Source: Akkermansia muciniphila (GTDB lineage Bacteria > Verrucomicrobiota > Verrucomicrobiia > Verrucomicrobiales > Akkermansiaceae). From it: a stretch of DNA of 64,000 nt. The stretch lies in the NCBI GenBank assembly GCA_945888515.1, contig CAMDAD010000002.1, positions 62,001 through 126,000 on the forward strand. Reading direction: 5' to 3'. Both the position numbers and the translations under genes were made by a program. The notes beneath the pieces are model-generated. The model made no database searches. It worked only from the letters and a program-made list of their open reading frames with translations, and was not told where the DNA came from. Every line of letters begins with the position of its first letter. Positions within the stretch are counted from its first letter, which is position 1. Shown piece after piece: positions 46,904 through 51,508 of the stretch.

Positions 46904-48167
46904 TCAAACGCAGCAATGGCTTGCGTGGGATAGACGGCATTGCTGGCATCCCTTCACGGATCAGCGCGACTGGTGCGATCCGGATTTTGAGCCACTGATG
47001 TTGGTGCGTGGCGAAGGCGTGTGGTTGTGGGATTCCGAGGGGCGGCGCTACTTCGATGGCAATTCCTCGATCTGGACGAACATTCACGGTCACGCGCATC
47101 CCGTGTTGAATGCCGCGGCGCATGCGCAATTGACCGAGGTGGCGCATACCTCGTATCTGGGATTCGCCAATCCGCGTGCTTCCGAATTGGCGGCGCGGTT
47201 GTGCGGTTTTTTCCCATCCGACACGTTGACTCGGGTGTTTTTTTCCGACGATGGCTCCACCGCTGTAGAATGCGCGGTGAAAATGGCCTTGCAGTACCGG
47301 ATGCAAACCGGTGCGTCCGAGCGCACGCGCTTGGTGGCGTTTGACAATGCCTATCACGGCGACACCATGGGCGCTGCCTCGTTAGGAGGCGTGAGTTTGT
47401 TTTTCGAACGATTTCGGAAATTCGGGATGCCTGTGAGTTTCGTGCGAGACTTAGTAGAACTCAGAGCGCTGGACGCGCGCGAGATCGCTGCGGTGATCAT
47501 CGAGCCGCTAATCCAGGGCGTTAATCAAATGCGTCTTTGGCCAGCGGGCATGTTGCGCGAGCTGCGTGAATGGTGCGATGCCACCGGCGTGCATTTGATT
47601 CTGGACGAAGTGATGACAGGCTTCGGCAGGACGGGGACGATGTTCGCGTGTGAGCGAGAGGGCGTAGTACCGGATTTTCTCTGTCTCGCCAAAGGCCTCA
47701 CGGGGGGCTATTTGCCATTGGCGGCCACCATAACCACGGAGACGATCTACCGAGCGTTTGAAGGGCCGGAAAATGTTTTCTACTATGGACATAGTTACAC
47801 GGCGAATCCCTTAGGCTGTGCGGTAGCCTTGGCCAGTCTCCATGTGTTTGCAGCGGAGAAAGTGATCGAACGACTGTCGCACAGCGCAGATTTTTTCGCG
47901 CGTATCCTGCACGAGGCGTTTCCGCGGCATCAGGTCCGGGTTTGCGGGATGATCGCGGGGATTGAGCTGCGCAGGGCGGATGGCTCGGCATTTCCTGCTG
48001 AAGAAAAAACGGGGGTGAGGGTTTGTCTGGCGGCGCGAGAATTCGGATTACTGACGCGTCCGATCCGCGATACGATCGTGCTGATGCCGCCCTTGTGTGC
48101 TACGGATGAAGAGTTGGTGTTCGCAGTGGAGGCGCTGAAGAAGGCGACCATCAAACATCGATTGTAG
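46896..48167 (+). CDS. bioA: adenosylmethionine-8-amino-7-oxononanoate aminotransferase
   Basis: BioA turns KAPA into DAPA with SAM as the amino donor in biotin synthesis. The ATG at 46896 gives 423 residues. Family marks are the opening CWHPFTDQRDW (W-H-P-F-T), ANPRASELAARL, SDDGSTAVECAVKMALQYRMQ, FDNAYHGDTMGA, LILDEVMTGFGRTGTMFACE and Lys266 in CLAKGLTGGYLPLAATI as the PLP lysine. No bioB, bioD or bioF is nearby. Its 3' end overlaps the convergent EcsC-like gene by 17 bases. Confidence 0.94.
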   Translation: MNDQTQQWLAWDRRHCWHPFTDQRDWCDPDFEPLMLVRGEGVWLWDSEGRRYFDGNSSIWTNIHGHAHPVLNAAAHAQLTEVAHTSYLGFANPRASELAARLCGFFPSDTLTRVFFSDDGSTAVECAVKMALQYRMQTGASERTRLVAFDNAYHGDTMGAASLGGVSLFFERFRKFGMPVSFVRDLVELRALDAREIAAVIIEPLIQGVNQMRLWPAGMLRELREWCDATGVHLILDEVMTGFGRTGTMFACEREGVVPDFLCLAKGLTGGYLPLAATITTETIYRAFEGPENVFYYGHSYTANPLGCAVALASLHVFAAEKVIERLSHSADFFARILHEAFPRHQVRVCGMIAGIELRRADGSAFPAEEKTGVRVCLAAREFGLLTRPIRDTIVLMPPLCATDEELVFAVEALKKATIKHRL

Positions 48168-48783
48168 TGATCGGCAACGGTGGCGGATTTCCTGGCAGAA
48201 GATCGATCTCTTTTTGAAACATCTCGATGGCAGTTTTGGCGACTTGGGCGGTGTCGTAATAAGCGTATCCGCCGACACCTACGGCGCCTATGAGTGGGAG
48301 CCAGCGTGCGACACCTTTAGCGATGCCTTTTTGTGTTAGCTTGAGACCGATTTTTTTGGCAACTTGCTGCAAGGCGTGTTGAGTGGCTTCTTTCACGAGG
48401 TAGCGGTCGCCCACTCGTATCACGAGATCGCGCACTGCCATGGCGGCTCCGTGGCGAAAGATGCAGTAGAGCATTTGACTTTGCGATAGCGAACTGGTCT
48501 TGCCGTAAAGTCCGGCGAGATCGGCGACCATTTGTCCCTGGATATGCCACACCGCCATGAGTTCTGGTATGATGGTGAGCCAACCGAGCGGACCAGGAGG
48601 CAGGGCGAGGGCACCAGCGGTCGTGGCGGCTTTTGCCGCTGCGGCATTGGCGATCTGACGCGCGCGCGCGGCGGTATCAGTGATGGGAACTTCCTTCGTT
48701 TCGGGAATCCGACCGATTAATTCAAGAATCGCATCGGTGAAACGATGGTGTGTTTCCTCGGCGGGGAGTGGTGGCTTTTTCAT
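48151..48783 (-). CDS. EcsC-like protein
   Basis: The 210-residue protein has a central pattern of EcsC-family proteins: small-residue-rich amphipathic helices (AAAAKAATTAGALALPPGPLGWLTIIPELMAVWHIQGQMVADLAGLYGK) and a second hydrophobic block (WLPLIGAVGVGGYAYYDTAQVAKTA). EcsC proteins are of unknown biochemical function and are linked to exoproteins and membrane physiology in Bacillus. The 3' end overlaps bioA on the other strand by 17 bases. Confidence 0.75.
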   Translation of the reverse strand: MKKPPLPAEETHHRFTDAILELIGRIPETKEVPITDTAARARQIANAAAAKAATTAGALALPPGPLGWLTIIPELMAVWHIQGQMVADLAGLYGKTSSLSQSQMLYCIFRHGAAMAVRDLVIRVGDRYLVKEATQHALQQVAKKIGLKLTQKGIAKGVARWLPLIGAVGVGGYAYYDTAQVAKTAIEMFQKEIDLLPGNPPPLPITTIDV

Positions 48784-48799
48784 AGAGAATGGACATGTG

Positions 48800-49267
48800 T
48801 CACTCGTAAGAATGCGCGGCTTTGATCAGTCGTTCAATCGGGGTGGCAGCTTTTGTCGTGTTAAGCGTGCTGCGAAAATCAGCCGCTTCTTCGGTGCTAA
48901 GAGTGCCATTTTTATCAACATCGATGACATGGAAAAGTTTCGCTAGGTTGCCTTCGCGATCGAATCGCTTGTCCGACTCGGCGCGACTCATGAAGCCATC
49001 ACGGTTGAGATCGGCGTTGAGAAATTGCGCTTGGGTAACCTTAGGATGGAAAGTCTGCCATTCTGAAAAAGTGATCAAGCGGTCATTGTCGATGTCAATA
49101 CGGTGGAAAAACCCTTGTTTCATGTAAACATCGAATTCCTTGCGCGTGCATTTGCCATCGGAATTGGCATCGAGGCGGGTGTAGGTGTTTTCATTCGCAC
49201 ATTGGCTGAGCAAAAGGAGAGAACTGCTGGCAAGCAGTCCGCATGTGTGGGCAAAGGAAAATTTCAT
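48800..49267 (-). CDS. EF-hand lipoprotein with four calcium-binding loops
   Basis: The start at 49267 gives 155 residues with a lipoprotein signal (SSSLLLLSQC, lipid site Cys23). Four EF-hand loops follow at about 33-44 (DANSDGKCTRKE), 58-69 (DIDNDRLITFSE), 86-97 (DLNRDGFMSRAE) and 116-127 (DVDKNGTLSTEE); all have Asp at position 1 and Glu at 12. It should bind Ca outside the cytoplasm. An upstream extension of 75 codons is open but lies antisense to the divergent permease gene and is unlikely. It is divergent from the permease, so the two share a regulatory region. Confidence 0.85.
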   Translation of the reverse strand: MKFSFAHTCGLLASSSLLLLSQCANENTYTRLDANSDGKCTRKEFDVYMKQGFFHRIDIDNDRLITFSEWQTFHPKVTQAQFLNADLNRDGFMSRAESDKRFDREGNLAKLFHVIDVDKNGTLSTEEAADFRSTLNTTKAATPIERLIKAAHSYE

Positions 49268-49409
49268 AAAAAATCTTTTTGGATCGACATCTTGGTGTCT
49301 GAGGCGGAGTTGTCGAGGAAATTTCATGTGTATGATTGGCAACCGCTTAATCAGCCATGAGATGATTTTTGGATTGGAATTCCACGTGAAGCCAGTAGCT
49401 TGCGGGCAG

Positions 49410-50504
49410 ATGACTGGTGAGGCACGGCAAGACTTTGCGTTTGCGTTTTTGAGCATTCTCTTTGAGGGCGCTCCGTTCATTTTGCTAGGCACACTGATCA
49501 GCGGGTTTATTGATATCTACATGCCGCCGGGAATGATGGATCGTTTTTTGCCGCGCAATAAGACCTTGGCGGTCATCATGGCGGGCTTGATGGGGGCGGT
49601 CTTTCCAGTTTGCGAATGCGCCGTCGTGCCGGTGATCCGTCGCTTGGTGCGCAAGGGCCTGCCAGTTTCCTGTGCATTAACCTACATGCTGGCGGCACCG
49701 ATTGTGAATCCGATCACCGCACTGAGCACGTGGAAGGCATTTACTGGTCCGGTCATGATGGTGCATGGCGAGTCCATGGCGGCCCATGTGGTGATGACAG
49801 GCAGTCGGCTTGGGCTGGGACTGGTGGTGGCGGTGTTGTTAGGCCTGGTGGTGGCCCGCTTGCCGCTGATGTGGATTTTGCGCAAGAAGCTGGTGGAGGA
49901 AATTCAGTCGACTAACGCCGCGCATGATCCATCGCATTCTCACGATCATCACGACTGCTGCGGGCACTCACATGGGTCGGAAAAATCACATGCGCACAAG
50001 CACGATCACAAGCACAAGCACGATGGCTGTTGCGGGCACGATCATGTTCACGAAACGAGCGTTGCTGTTACAGGTAATCCTCGCCTAGTCGCGGCCTTTC
50101 GCTCGGCGATCAAGGATTTTGTCGATGTGGGTGTGTATTTCTCCATCGGTGTGGCGATCACTGCGCTGTTCAATACTGGTATCGCACCAGGGGCGGCGTG
50201 GCTGGATTCGCTCGCGAGTCGACAGGTAATCGCACCTGCCGCTCTCATGGCGTTGGCGTTTGTCCTCAGTCTCTGCAGCACTTCGGATGCCTTCATCGCA
50301 GCCACGCTCGATAAATTTACTTACGGAGCGAAACTTGCGTTTTTGGTGTTCGGACCGATGTTAGATTTGAAATTGCTGTTTCTCTATCAGACCGTACTGC
50401 GGCGGAAATTTATCGTGTGGATGGCGCTGGGCTTGTTTGTCGTGATTGGTGCGGCGGCTGTGGGCTTTCAATGGTATTTGAACAATCAATTGACGTTGCC
50501 GTGA
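49410..50504 (+). CDS. putative metal-handling permease (COG0701/DUF318 type) with His/Cys-rich loop
   Basis: From the ATG at 49410 the protein has 364 residues and about eight hydrophobic segments. It has the permease marks FAFLSILFEGAPFILLGTLISGFID, AVFPVCECAVVPVIRRLVRKG and AAPIVNPITALSTW, as in the SO_0444/YraQ-type permeases. A central cytoplasmic or periplasmic loop (about residues 168-215) is packed with His and Cys, with two similar blocks HHDCCGHSHG and HDGCCGHDHVHE, which strongly suggests divalent metal binding (Zn, Cu or Ni). Direction of transport is unknown. The true start may be 49362 or 49332; the chosen one gives 11 residues before the first helix. It is coupled to the next gene. 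Confidence 0.82.
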   Translation: MTGEARQDFAFAFLSILFEGAPFILLGTLISGFIDIYMPPGMMDRFLPRNKTLAVIMAGLMGAVFPVCECAVVPVIRRLVRKGLPVSCALTYMLAAPIVNPITALSTWKAFTGPVMMVHGESMAAHVVMTGSRLGLGLVVAVLLGLVVARLPLMWILRKKLVEEIQSTNAAHDPSHSHDHHDCCGHSHGSEKSHAHKHDHKHKHDGCCGHDHVHETSVAVTGNPRLVAAFRSAIKDFVDVGVYFSIGVAITALFNTGIAPGAAWLDSLASRQVIAPAALMALAFVLSLCSTSDAFIAATLDKFTYGAKLAFLVFGPMLDLKLLFLYQTVLRRKFIVWMALGLFVVIGAAAVGFQWYLNNQLTLP

Positions 50505-51319
50505 AGCTGAAATTTCAACGCATTTTGTTTTCTCTCATCGTGCTGATTTGGGCATCGGTGATGTTGTATTTCTTTACGACTGGTCGGATTGGGAAATACC
50601 TCGCACCGGATTTCCGGCCTCTGGCTCTCTACGGTGGTCTGGGCTTGGCGGTGATGGGCTTGTTTGTCTTGCTGACAGCAGGCGAGTCGGCCAGTTGCGG
50701 CCATGATCATAGCGAGGGAGATCCACATGATCATGAAGCAAGTGAGATGCATCCTCTCACCTCAATGTGTTTCATGCTCGCACCGCTGTTGTTTGCGGTG
50801 GCATCGACCAAAGATGGATTCTCCGTGCAAGCGCTTTCTCGTAAGGCTTTGTTTGATGCTCCACTCAGCAATTCGGTATTTCTCGCGCAGGATCTGCCGC
50901 CACTGACCCTCGAGGAAATAGAAAAAACGCATCGCAAGAATGAGTCGGGGTGTTATGAGTTCAATCTGATGGAGTTGTATTTCGCAGTCGGTGATCCGGA
51001 GTTGCAGAAATTGATCGACGGGATGAAGGTCGAGACCGAGGGTCGGCTGGTCATGGAAAAAGAAAATAACGAGTCGGGTAAGCGCCGGCGGTTGTATCGT
51101 CTTTTCATCACTTGCTGCGCCGCCGATGCAAGAGCCGTGCCCATCATTCTCGATTTCGGTGACACAACGATACCCACTTTGGAAGAAAACGCTTGGGTCA
51201 AGGTCTCTGGCGTGGTGACATTTCCCGTCGAACGCGGCGCCGCGCAGGTCGTGTTGCAAACCGCGACATGCGAGCCGAAAGAAGCACCGTGGGAAGAGAG
51301 CTTCATGCGGAATAATTGA
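50501..51319 (+). CDS. TIGR03943/DUF1980-type partner of the permease
   Basis: The GTG at 50501 overlaps the permease stop (GTGA), giving 272 residues; an ATG at 50471 is the alternative. Two membrane helices come first (ILFSLIVLIWASVMLYFF; LALYGGLGLAVMGLFVLLTAG), then a His-rich loop (CGHDHSEGDPHDHEASEMHP), a third hydrophobic segment and a soluble domain with FITCCAADARAVPI and WVKVSGVVTFP, which matches the C-terminal part of this family. In many bacteria these proteins sit next to COG0701 permeases. Together they probably form a metal transport or delivery complex. Confidence 0.85.
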   Translation: MKLKFQRILFSLIVLIWASVMLYFFTTGRIGKYLAPDFRPLALYGGLGLAVMGLFVLLTAGESASCGHDHSEGDPHDHEASEMHPLTSMCFMLAPLLFAVASTKDGFSVQALSRKALFDAPLSNSVFLAQDLPPLTLEEIEKTHRKNESGCYEFNLMELYFAVGDPELQKLIDGMKVETEGRLVMEKENNESGKRRRLYRLFITCCAADARAVPIILDFGDTTIPTLEENAWVKVSGVVTFPVERGAAQVVLQTATCEPKEAPWEESFMRNN

Positions 51320-51508
51320 GTCGATGGACGGTTCTTCGGATGTTTGGCGAGTGACATCGGAGAAATGCTGCACGATAAGGTGATCGAATGGTATCGATGA
51401 GAGAAAGTGAGGAACCGAACAGGCGAAGGCGACGAATCCATTCTGCGCGTGGACTGGAATGCATTTGCCATGGACTTTGCGGATGGGATCGTTTATGGAT
51501 CGCCCGTC

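Follow-up and report, generated by a model that had tools for sequence, protein, structure and literature searches.

The locus described here raises two linked questions: what is moved across the membrane by a permease that is encoded together with a smaller partner protein, both carrying His-rich loops, and does the EF-hand lipoprotein encoded divergently from them belong to the same system? A first-pass annotation had joined all three genes in a proposal of metal handling at the cell surface with a link to calcium. The window, by which we mean the whole stretch of DNA that was analysed (64,000 nucleotides of a contig deposited as Akkermansia muciniphila), derives from a genome of 3.36 Mb, and the permease and its partner sit within it among housekeeping genes.

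The permease, its partner and their conserved pairing

The features referred to throughout, with positions in the window, are as follows.

48151-48783, minus strand: EcsC-family protein (PF12787, 31.0 bits, cut-off 30.4); a neighbour, outside the system
48800-49267, minus strand: EF-hand lipoprotein; a neighbour, judged to lie outside the system
49374-49401, plus strand: promoter-like TTGGAA-16 bp-TAGCTT, 8 bases before the ATG
49410-50504, plus strand: permease, ArsP_1 (PF03773, 175.7 bits, cut-off 32.3), 364 aa from the ATG at 49410
49611-49619, plus strand: Cys-Glu-Cys (C68 E69 C70) of the permease, invariant in 38 of 38 aligned permeases; proposed half of a transport site
49923-50054, plus strand: central His/Cys loop of the permease, H172-E215, read directly; varies among relatives
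50274-50288, plus strand: C289-S-T-S-D293 of the permease, with C289, S290 and D293 invariant (38 permeases); proposed second half of the transport site
50501-51319, plus strand: partner, DUF1980/TIGR03943-type, 272 aa from the GTG at 50501
50696-50752, plus strand: CGHDH...HDH loop of the partner, C66-H84, read directly as CGHDHSEGDPHDHEASEMH
51113-51127, plus strand: C205-C206-A-A-D209 (CCxAD) in the OB domain of the partner, with C205, C206, A208 and D209 invariant in 41 of 41 partners

The PF03773 match of the permease spans positions 9-287 of the 294 in the profile. The partner belongs to DUF1980, with 32.7 bits for PF09323 and 31.9 bits for PF21537 over cut-offs of 25.9, and narrowly misses the equivalog cut-off of TIGR03943 (82.0 bits against 88.8, profile 2-218 of 221); judged by these scores, it is a close but divergent TIGR03943 relative. 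Read directly, the permease stop and the partner start share GTGA, the partner GTG at 50501 lying within the permease stop, in agreement with the overlap first reported for the two genes. A second ArsP_1 permease (G000:C30 21223-22110; L107 4206-5339) carries N-terminal CCGG and CCGT motifs and scores 101.7 bits for SaoE and 98.0 bits for SO_0444, both under cut-off.

Among 57 genomes sampled up to the same order, the window's included, 45 carry a homologue of the partner, and each of these 45 also encodes an ArsP_1 protein; nine of the 12 genomes without a partner have no ArsP_1 protein at all and three (G020, G022, G032) have one. In 42 of the 45 partner-carrying genomes the two genes adjoin each other, a count made up of the window, 37 of 40 fetched loci and four cases established by coordinates (G051, G052, G055, G056). 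Of the three exceptions, G016 lies at a contig end, and in G019 and G031 a different gene precedes the partner. A second set of 80 loci, which overlaps the 40-locus order-level set, comprises 73 paired loci, five contig ends and two loci without a recognised partner. The pair is also found side by side in all 12 annotated plasmid regions (12 of 47 plasmid records with matches), one partner on the KF18 plasmid being annotated as two pieces. Depositor titles of Akkermansia muciniphila or Prosthecobacter debontii on environmental MAG contigs L113, L114, L118 and others look doubtful.

Further genes near the pair vary. In the sister genome G009, a gene for Sbt_1, a Na+-dependent bicarbonate transporter (L045 2449-3486, 361.3 bits), lies between the pair and a phosphoglycerate mutase gene where the window has only 87 bases (51320-51406), and ORFs that look similar also follow the pair in G001, G005 and G006. 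A superoxide dismutase-like gene, named by eye, is divergent from the permease at L064, L066 and L076 (G039, G042 and G054), in two families.

The closest known systems are ScfA/ScfB of group A Streptococcus, YcgR/YcgQ of Bacillus subtilis and SMU.746/SMU.747 of S. mutans, which, as in the window, consist of a linked multi-span permease and smaller partner and whose function is given as unknown in the parts of PMC5584981 that concern them. These systems share with the window an ArsP_1-type permease adjoining a TIGR03943 protein, and in the window, in 42 of the 45 order-level genomes and in all 12 plasmid regions the two genes are adjacent, on the same strand and permease first, as in the ScfAB/YcgRQ type; the window partner differs in its divergence from TIGR03943. 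In streptococci, ScfAB matters for infection fitness, according to the same portion of PMC5584981. The two-subunit permease is real and well conserved, and it belongs to a kind that is known but uncharacterised; no study in the openly accessible literature searched names its substrate.

The divergent EF-hand gene and the intergenic region

The lipoprotein begins with a lipobox-like LLLLSQC and contains four 12-residue EF loops, each with D first and E last (DANSDGKCTRKE, DIDNDRLITFSE, DLNRDGFMSRAE and DVDKNGTLSTEE). Together they score 54.2 bits for Pfam EF-hand_1 (cut-off 25.4), no single stretch passing alone, and the initial report of a divergent lipoprotein with four complete EF-hands is thereby upheld, calcium binding being a prediction. 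Lanmodulin (NF053806) is its top NCBIfam match, at 28.2 bits against a cut-off of 135, and the protein is not a member of that family.

If a calcium link did tie the permease, the partner and this lipoprotein into one system, the three genes ought to travel together; in favour of this, they are divergently adjacent in the window and were so in G009 until an insertion parted them. Some EF-hand match occurs in 20 of the 57 whole genomes, the window's included, but an orthologue was found in only one of the 56 others, the sister genome G009 (81% identity), the remaining matches being 26-39% identical. Beside the pair, tblastn at E 1e-4 gave no EF-hand match in 40 of 40 order-level loci, and none of the 80 loci of the overlapping second set, nine of which have less than 1.5 kb of upstream sequence, holds an ORF with three EF loops or a phmmer match. 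In G009 itself, 223 bases separate the orthologue from the end of contig C7, and 215 bases separate the pair from the start of C12. Because window positions 47303-49336 align to C7 and those from 49351 onward to C12, the same gene order can be taken as ancestral in G009. The last 143 bases of C7 are repeated at 12 places in that genome, at least eight of them at contig ends, and both contig ends bear repeats of GTTGCCTCAT in inverted order (L078 2038-2188, L045 1-155). By inference, an IS-like element was probably inserted between the EF-hand gene and the pair; the repeat breaks the G009 assembly at this point. The insertion point lies 60-74 bases before the permease start and leaves the promoter-like boxes at 49374-49401 intact, so any shared operator upstream of it has not been kept in the sister.

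The proposed calcium link therefore finds no support: among the loci examined, the three genes do not recur together outside the window and, in split form, G009, and the conserved neighbourhood that had been made a test of the proposal exists for the pair and not for the EF-hand gene. We accordingly reject a calcium-linked trio, consider a single three-gene system highly improbable, and regard the EF-hand gene as what looks like an unrelated, chance neighbour. A divergent neighbour can mislead in this way, and here it appears to contribute nothing to the function of the pair.

A second expectation concerned the 142-base intergenic region (49268-49409), in which a Zur/Fur-like site had been suggested. 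The region was scanned with ten consensus motifs and compared with shuffles, with the proviso that the Zur box of the host phylum may differ. For Zur, Fur and PerR, the best mismatch counts of these motifs were no better than those of shuffled sequences, and a recognisable site for any of the three was rejected because shuffles fit equally. The MntR motif matched with 9 mismatches of 24, a fit equalled by 10 of 300 shuffles, and as one of ten motifs tried it was not counted; with one arm-7 palindrome (49349-49367), the region has no more of these than the mean of 1.08 in shuffles. Boxes comparable to the promoter-like site were seen by eye at the same distance in eight of ten genus members including the window, the exceptions being G004 and G008. 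By score, 67 of 200 shuffles were as good as the site in the window, and it is consequently only the shared spacing in the genus that speaks for these boxes. With the boxes 8 bases before the ATG, the permease message might possibly be nearly leaderless.

The window's genome encodes four FUR-family proteins, none reaching an NCBIfam cut-off, as well as two ZnuA-family genes and one COG0523 gene, read as two overlapping matches; all of these lie on other contigs.

Predicted folds, invariant residues and His/Cys loops

Sequence searches returned no solved relative for either the permease or the partner alone, and profile searches did no better than E 0.13 and 0.94. For the permease, the AlphaFold2 model (pLDDT 85.2, pTM 0.81) has no significant Foldseek match (best E 0.52). 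With VIA-align, the best match is to Pho90 (Z 14.4 over 277 residues, rmsd 4.8), a Z of about 14 being possibly common among helical proteins, and ranks 1-36 are nearly all DASS, CNT, AbgT and TRAP transporters, which are classed as IT-superfamily or elevator type. With caution, then, the model suggests an elevator-like fold for the permease. Its CEC motif recurs in nine of nine permeases from the seven plasmid regions inspected. An alignment of the internal repeat of the permease sets C68 on C289 (E 0.05, with one of 20 column shuffles scoring higher), and this register of CSTSD with CEC is suggestive only. ArsP has been placed in the TOG superfamily with a 4+4 repeat, as set out in a section of PMC7176098.

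The partner model (pLDDT 87.4, pTM 0.77) comprises three N-terminal helices (3-27, 36-58, 85-102) and a C-terminal domain (about 146-264) with a predicted OB fold, which matches Ten1 in Foldseek at E 2.9e-5 and gives Z 10.7 and rmsd 2.8 over 98 residues in VIA-align. G150, like the CCxAD residues, is invariant among the 41 aligned partners. CCxAD is present in five of nine partners from the seven plasmid regions; Bacillota partners of Listeria, Enterococcus and the second Priestia pair lack it, whereas the window partner has it. A membrane-anchored OB-fold domain, as predicted for the partner, is also found in the haem chaperone CcmE. Two CcmE entries appear in the partner's Foldseek list (8ce8_E and 1lm0, E 7e-3 and 1.2e-2), below the best OB matches, Ten1 and MCM, and without a demonstrated sequence relation, and CcmE is not known to have a CCxAD motif.

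In addition to these invariant sites, each subunit may carry a His-rich loop, and by the positive-inside pattern the loops of the pair would face the cytosol. Permease residues 172-215 (HDPSHSHDHHDCCGHSHGSEKSHAHKHDHKHKHDGCCGHDHVHE) include 16 His and 4 Cys and are disordered in the AlphaFold2 model (pLDDT about 44-46). Two blocks within them were at first read as similar copies of HDxCCGH; similar they are, but not both exact, the sequences being HHDCCGH and HDGCCGH. At least nine His occur at the same loop in 14 of 38 aligned permeases, the window's included, which is more than chance, and the loop of the window is far larger than in most plasmid-region permeases inspected. The further His-rich loop noted on the partner was found as described, its residues being mostly kept among 41 partners (C66 in 36, H68 in 37, H70 in 36, H78 in 36).

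Which subunit carries the loop differs among lineages. The window's family has medians of 12 His in the permease loop and 5 in the partner, families f2, f3 and f4 have 0-3 in the permease and 28-34 in the partner, and in f6 neither subunit has a loop. Among 38 order-wide pairs, in which the partner count takes in the N-terminal tail, at least nine His are present in the permease of 14, the partner of 17, both of none and neither of seven. The corresponding figures for the 73 pairs of the second set, nearly all from the window's family, are 40, 12, two (L178, L191) and 23. Within the genus, the permease loop has been lost from G004 and G008, and relatives G039, G042 and G046 have no His-rich loop at all. 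An evolutionary trade-off between the subunits was considered and is not demonstrated: permease and partner counts in the 38 pairs correlate at Spearman -0.30 (p 0.07), and the three loop states require only five changes on a quick tree, with two independent pairs on starred branches and no significance. Five changes amount to few events and not to a proven trade-off; the sequences are accounted for by a His/Cys loop that is carried by different subunits in different lineages and that a few changes can explain.

Substrate and direction of transport

What is directly observed is the family to which each subunit belongs, the conserved pairing of the two and the invariant Cys sites in both. Because these Cys residues occur together with other metal ligands, and because relatives of the pair have metal genes as neighbours, we interpret the pair as probably an inner-membrane permease of two subunits whose substrate is a soft divalent metal; within that interpretation, zinc is the metal to which we give a little better than an even chance. 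The earlier proposal of metal handling at the cell surface is retained in its first part; "cell surface" is too loose a term for what is an integral-membrane permease complex.

The neighbourhoods come chiefly from plasmids. A metal gene lies within about 6 kb of the pair in eight of the 12 plasmid regions, and none was seen in the other four; six of the eight positive regions are from Priestia and hence not independent. On the Priestia p-LAD2 and KF18 plasmids, two pairs occur with a ZnuA-type ABC importer, a COG0523 GTPase and ZinT; a COG0523 GTPase adjoins the pair in Pseudalkalibacillus; nickel ABC genes are near the pair in Priestia J2; and a CDF gene lies at the far edge of the E. raffinosus region. 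No ABC, COG0523 or ZinT protein of the plasmid regions reaches an NCBIfam equivalog cut-off, so that "zinc" applies at family level only. Among 121 Verrucomicrobial loci, the window included, one Akkermansiaceae MAG (L149) has a ZnuA-type ABC importer immediately upstream of the pair and on its strand, and a FUR-family gene is near the pair only in G038; in most Verrucomicrobial relatives no metal gene was recognised within 6 kb of the pair.

A Bacillus anthracis gene bears on the same point. BAS1632, of the ArsP_1 superfamily like the window permease, is likened to the two-component permease subunit SMU_747c in the portion of PMC6336718 that deals with it; it stands beside yciC, with Zur boxes and Zur-bound upstream DNA, and the window differs in having neither such a neighbour nor a recognised box. 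For EMSA, BAS1632 and yciC have one primer pair between them in that paper, its two members exchanged, and the Zur boxes may therefore serve yciC alone.

Other neighbours may point outward. Three Priestia plasmids among the eight positive regions carry HMA2/P-type ATPase genes near the pair, and these argue for an efflux complex in which the cytosolic His/Cys loops collect surplus zinc, copper or cadmium and the pair exports it. CDF exporters likewise carry cytosolic His loops resembling those of the pair, a likeness that counts for efflux. The best NCBIfam match of the permease is the SO_0444 family of Cu/Zn efflux transporters (NF033936), which belongs to the same Pfam family, but the score of 88.2 bits is far under the cut-off of 300 and the permease is not a member; nor is it a SaoE efflux transporter (NF040736, 46.3 bits, cut-off 325). 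SO_0444 itself is needed for growth with ZnSO4 or CuCl2 and is the more distant system, its operon partner being a ZntR-like regulator where the window has a DUF1980 protein, as far as the relevant part of PMC3219624 describes it; a Nitratiruptor gene of this family is induced by Cd and Cu in the published excerpt on it. Against export stand the Priestia p-LAD2 and KF18 neighbours, which are importers and zinc-shortage genes, and the one MAG with an importer operon, and we hold metal efflux to be a tentative alternative.

The same loops admit a different interpretation, as sensors or side features of a permease for an organic acid, an amino acid, an organoarsenical or a metal-thiol complex. 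Some relatives do without the loops, and the transporters closest in fold to the permease model have organic anions, phosphate or sulfate as substrates. One member of the same Pfam family, ArsP, is an exporter of organoarsenicals according to a section of PMC7176098, and a passage of PMC5584981 ties SMU.746/747 to acid tolerance and biofilm and offers an amino-acid permease as a hypothesis. The invariant CEC and CCxAD sites and the metal-gene neighbours in Bacillota weigh against such a substrate, which we judge unlikely. We also count against the metal interpretation itself the relatives without any His-rich loop, the housekeeping surroundings of the window pair, the four plasmid regions without a metal gene and the failure to find a Zur/Fur-like site.

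If the pair does carry metal, the cytosol-facing loops, the one on the permease and the small one on the partner, would gather metal ions, and the ion would then cross a transport site formed by the invariant CEC and CSTSD in an elevator-like permease. The extracytoplasmic OB domain of the partner, via its invariant CCxAD, could accept or deliver the metal outside, somewhat as CcmE does with haem. The pair would serve zinc homeostasis, the neighbours of relatives leaning slightly to zinc shortage. The collector, mainly on the permease in the window's family and mainly on the partner in other sampled families, would accordingly be part of the complex and not of one protein. Taken as a whole, a split zinc transporter of undescribed mechanism, combining an elevator-like permease with a paired-Cys site, an outer OB subunit that hands over via CCxAD and a cytosolic His/Cys collector on either subunit, is a speculative model to which we lend less than even credence.

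New in this analysis are the invariant Cys sites in both proteins, the predicted elevator-like permease, the predicted OB fold and a loop that shifts between subunits. Were the split-transporter model true, the placement of the permease in the TOG superfamily, as given in the section of PMC7176098 already cited, would need revision. The permease/DUF1980 pair is present in several phyla, and the conserved Cys sites, the OB fold and the His/Cys loop supply residues open to direct test, for which the Priestia neighbourhoods point to zinc first.
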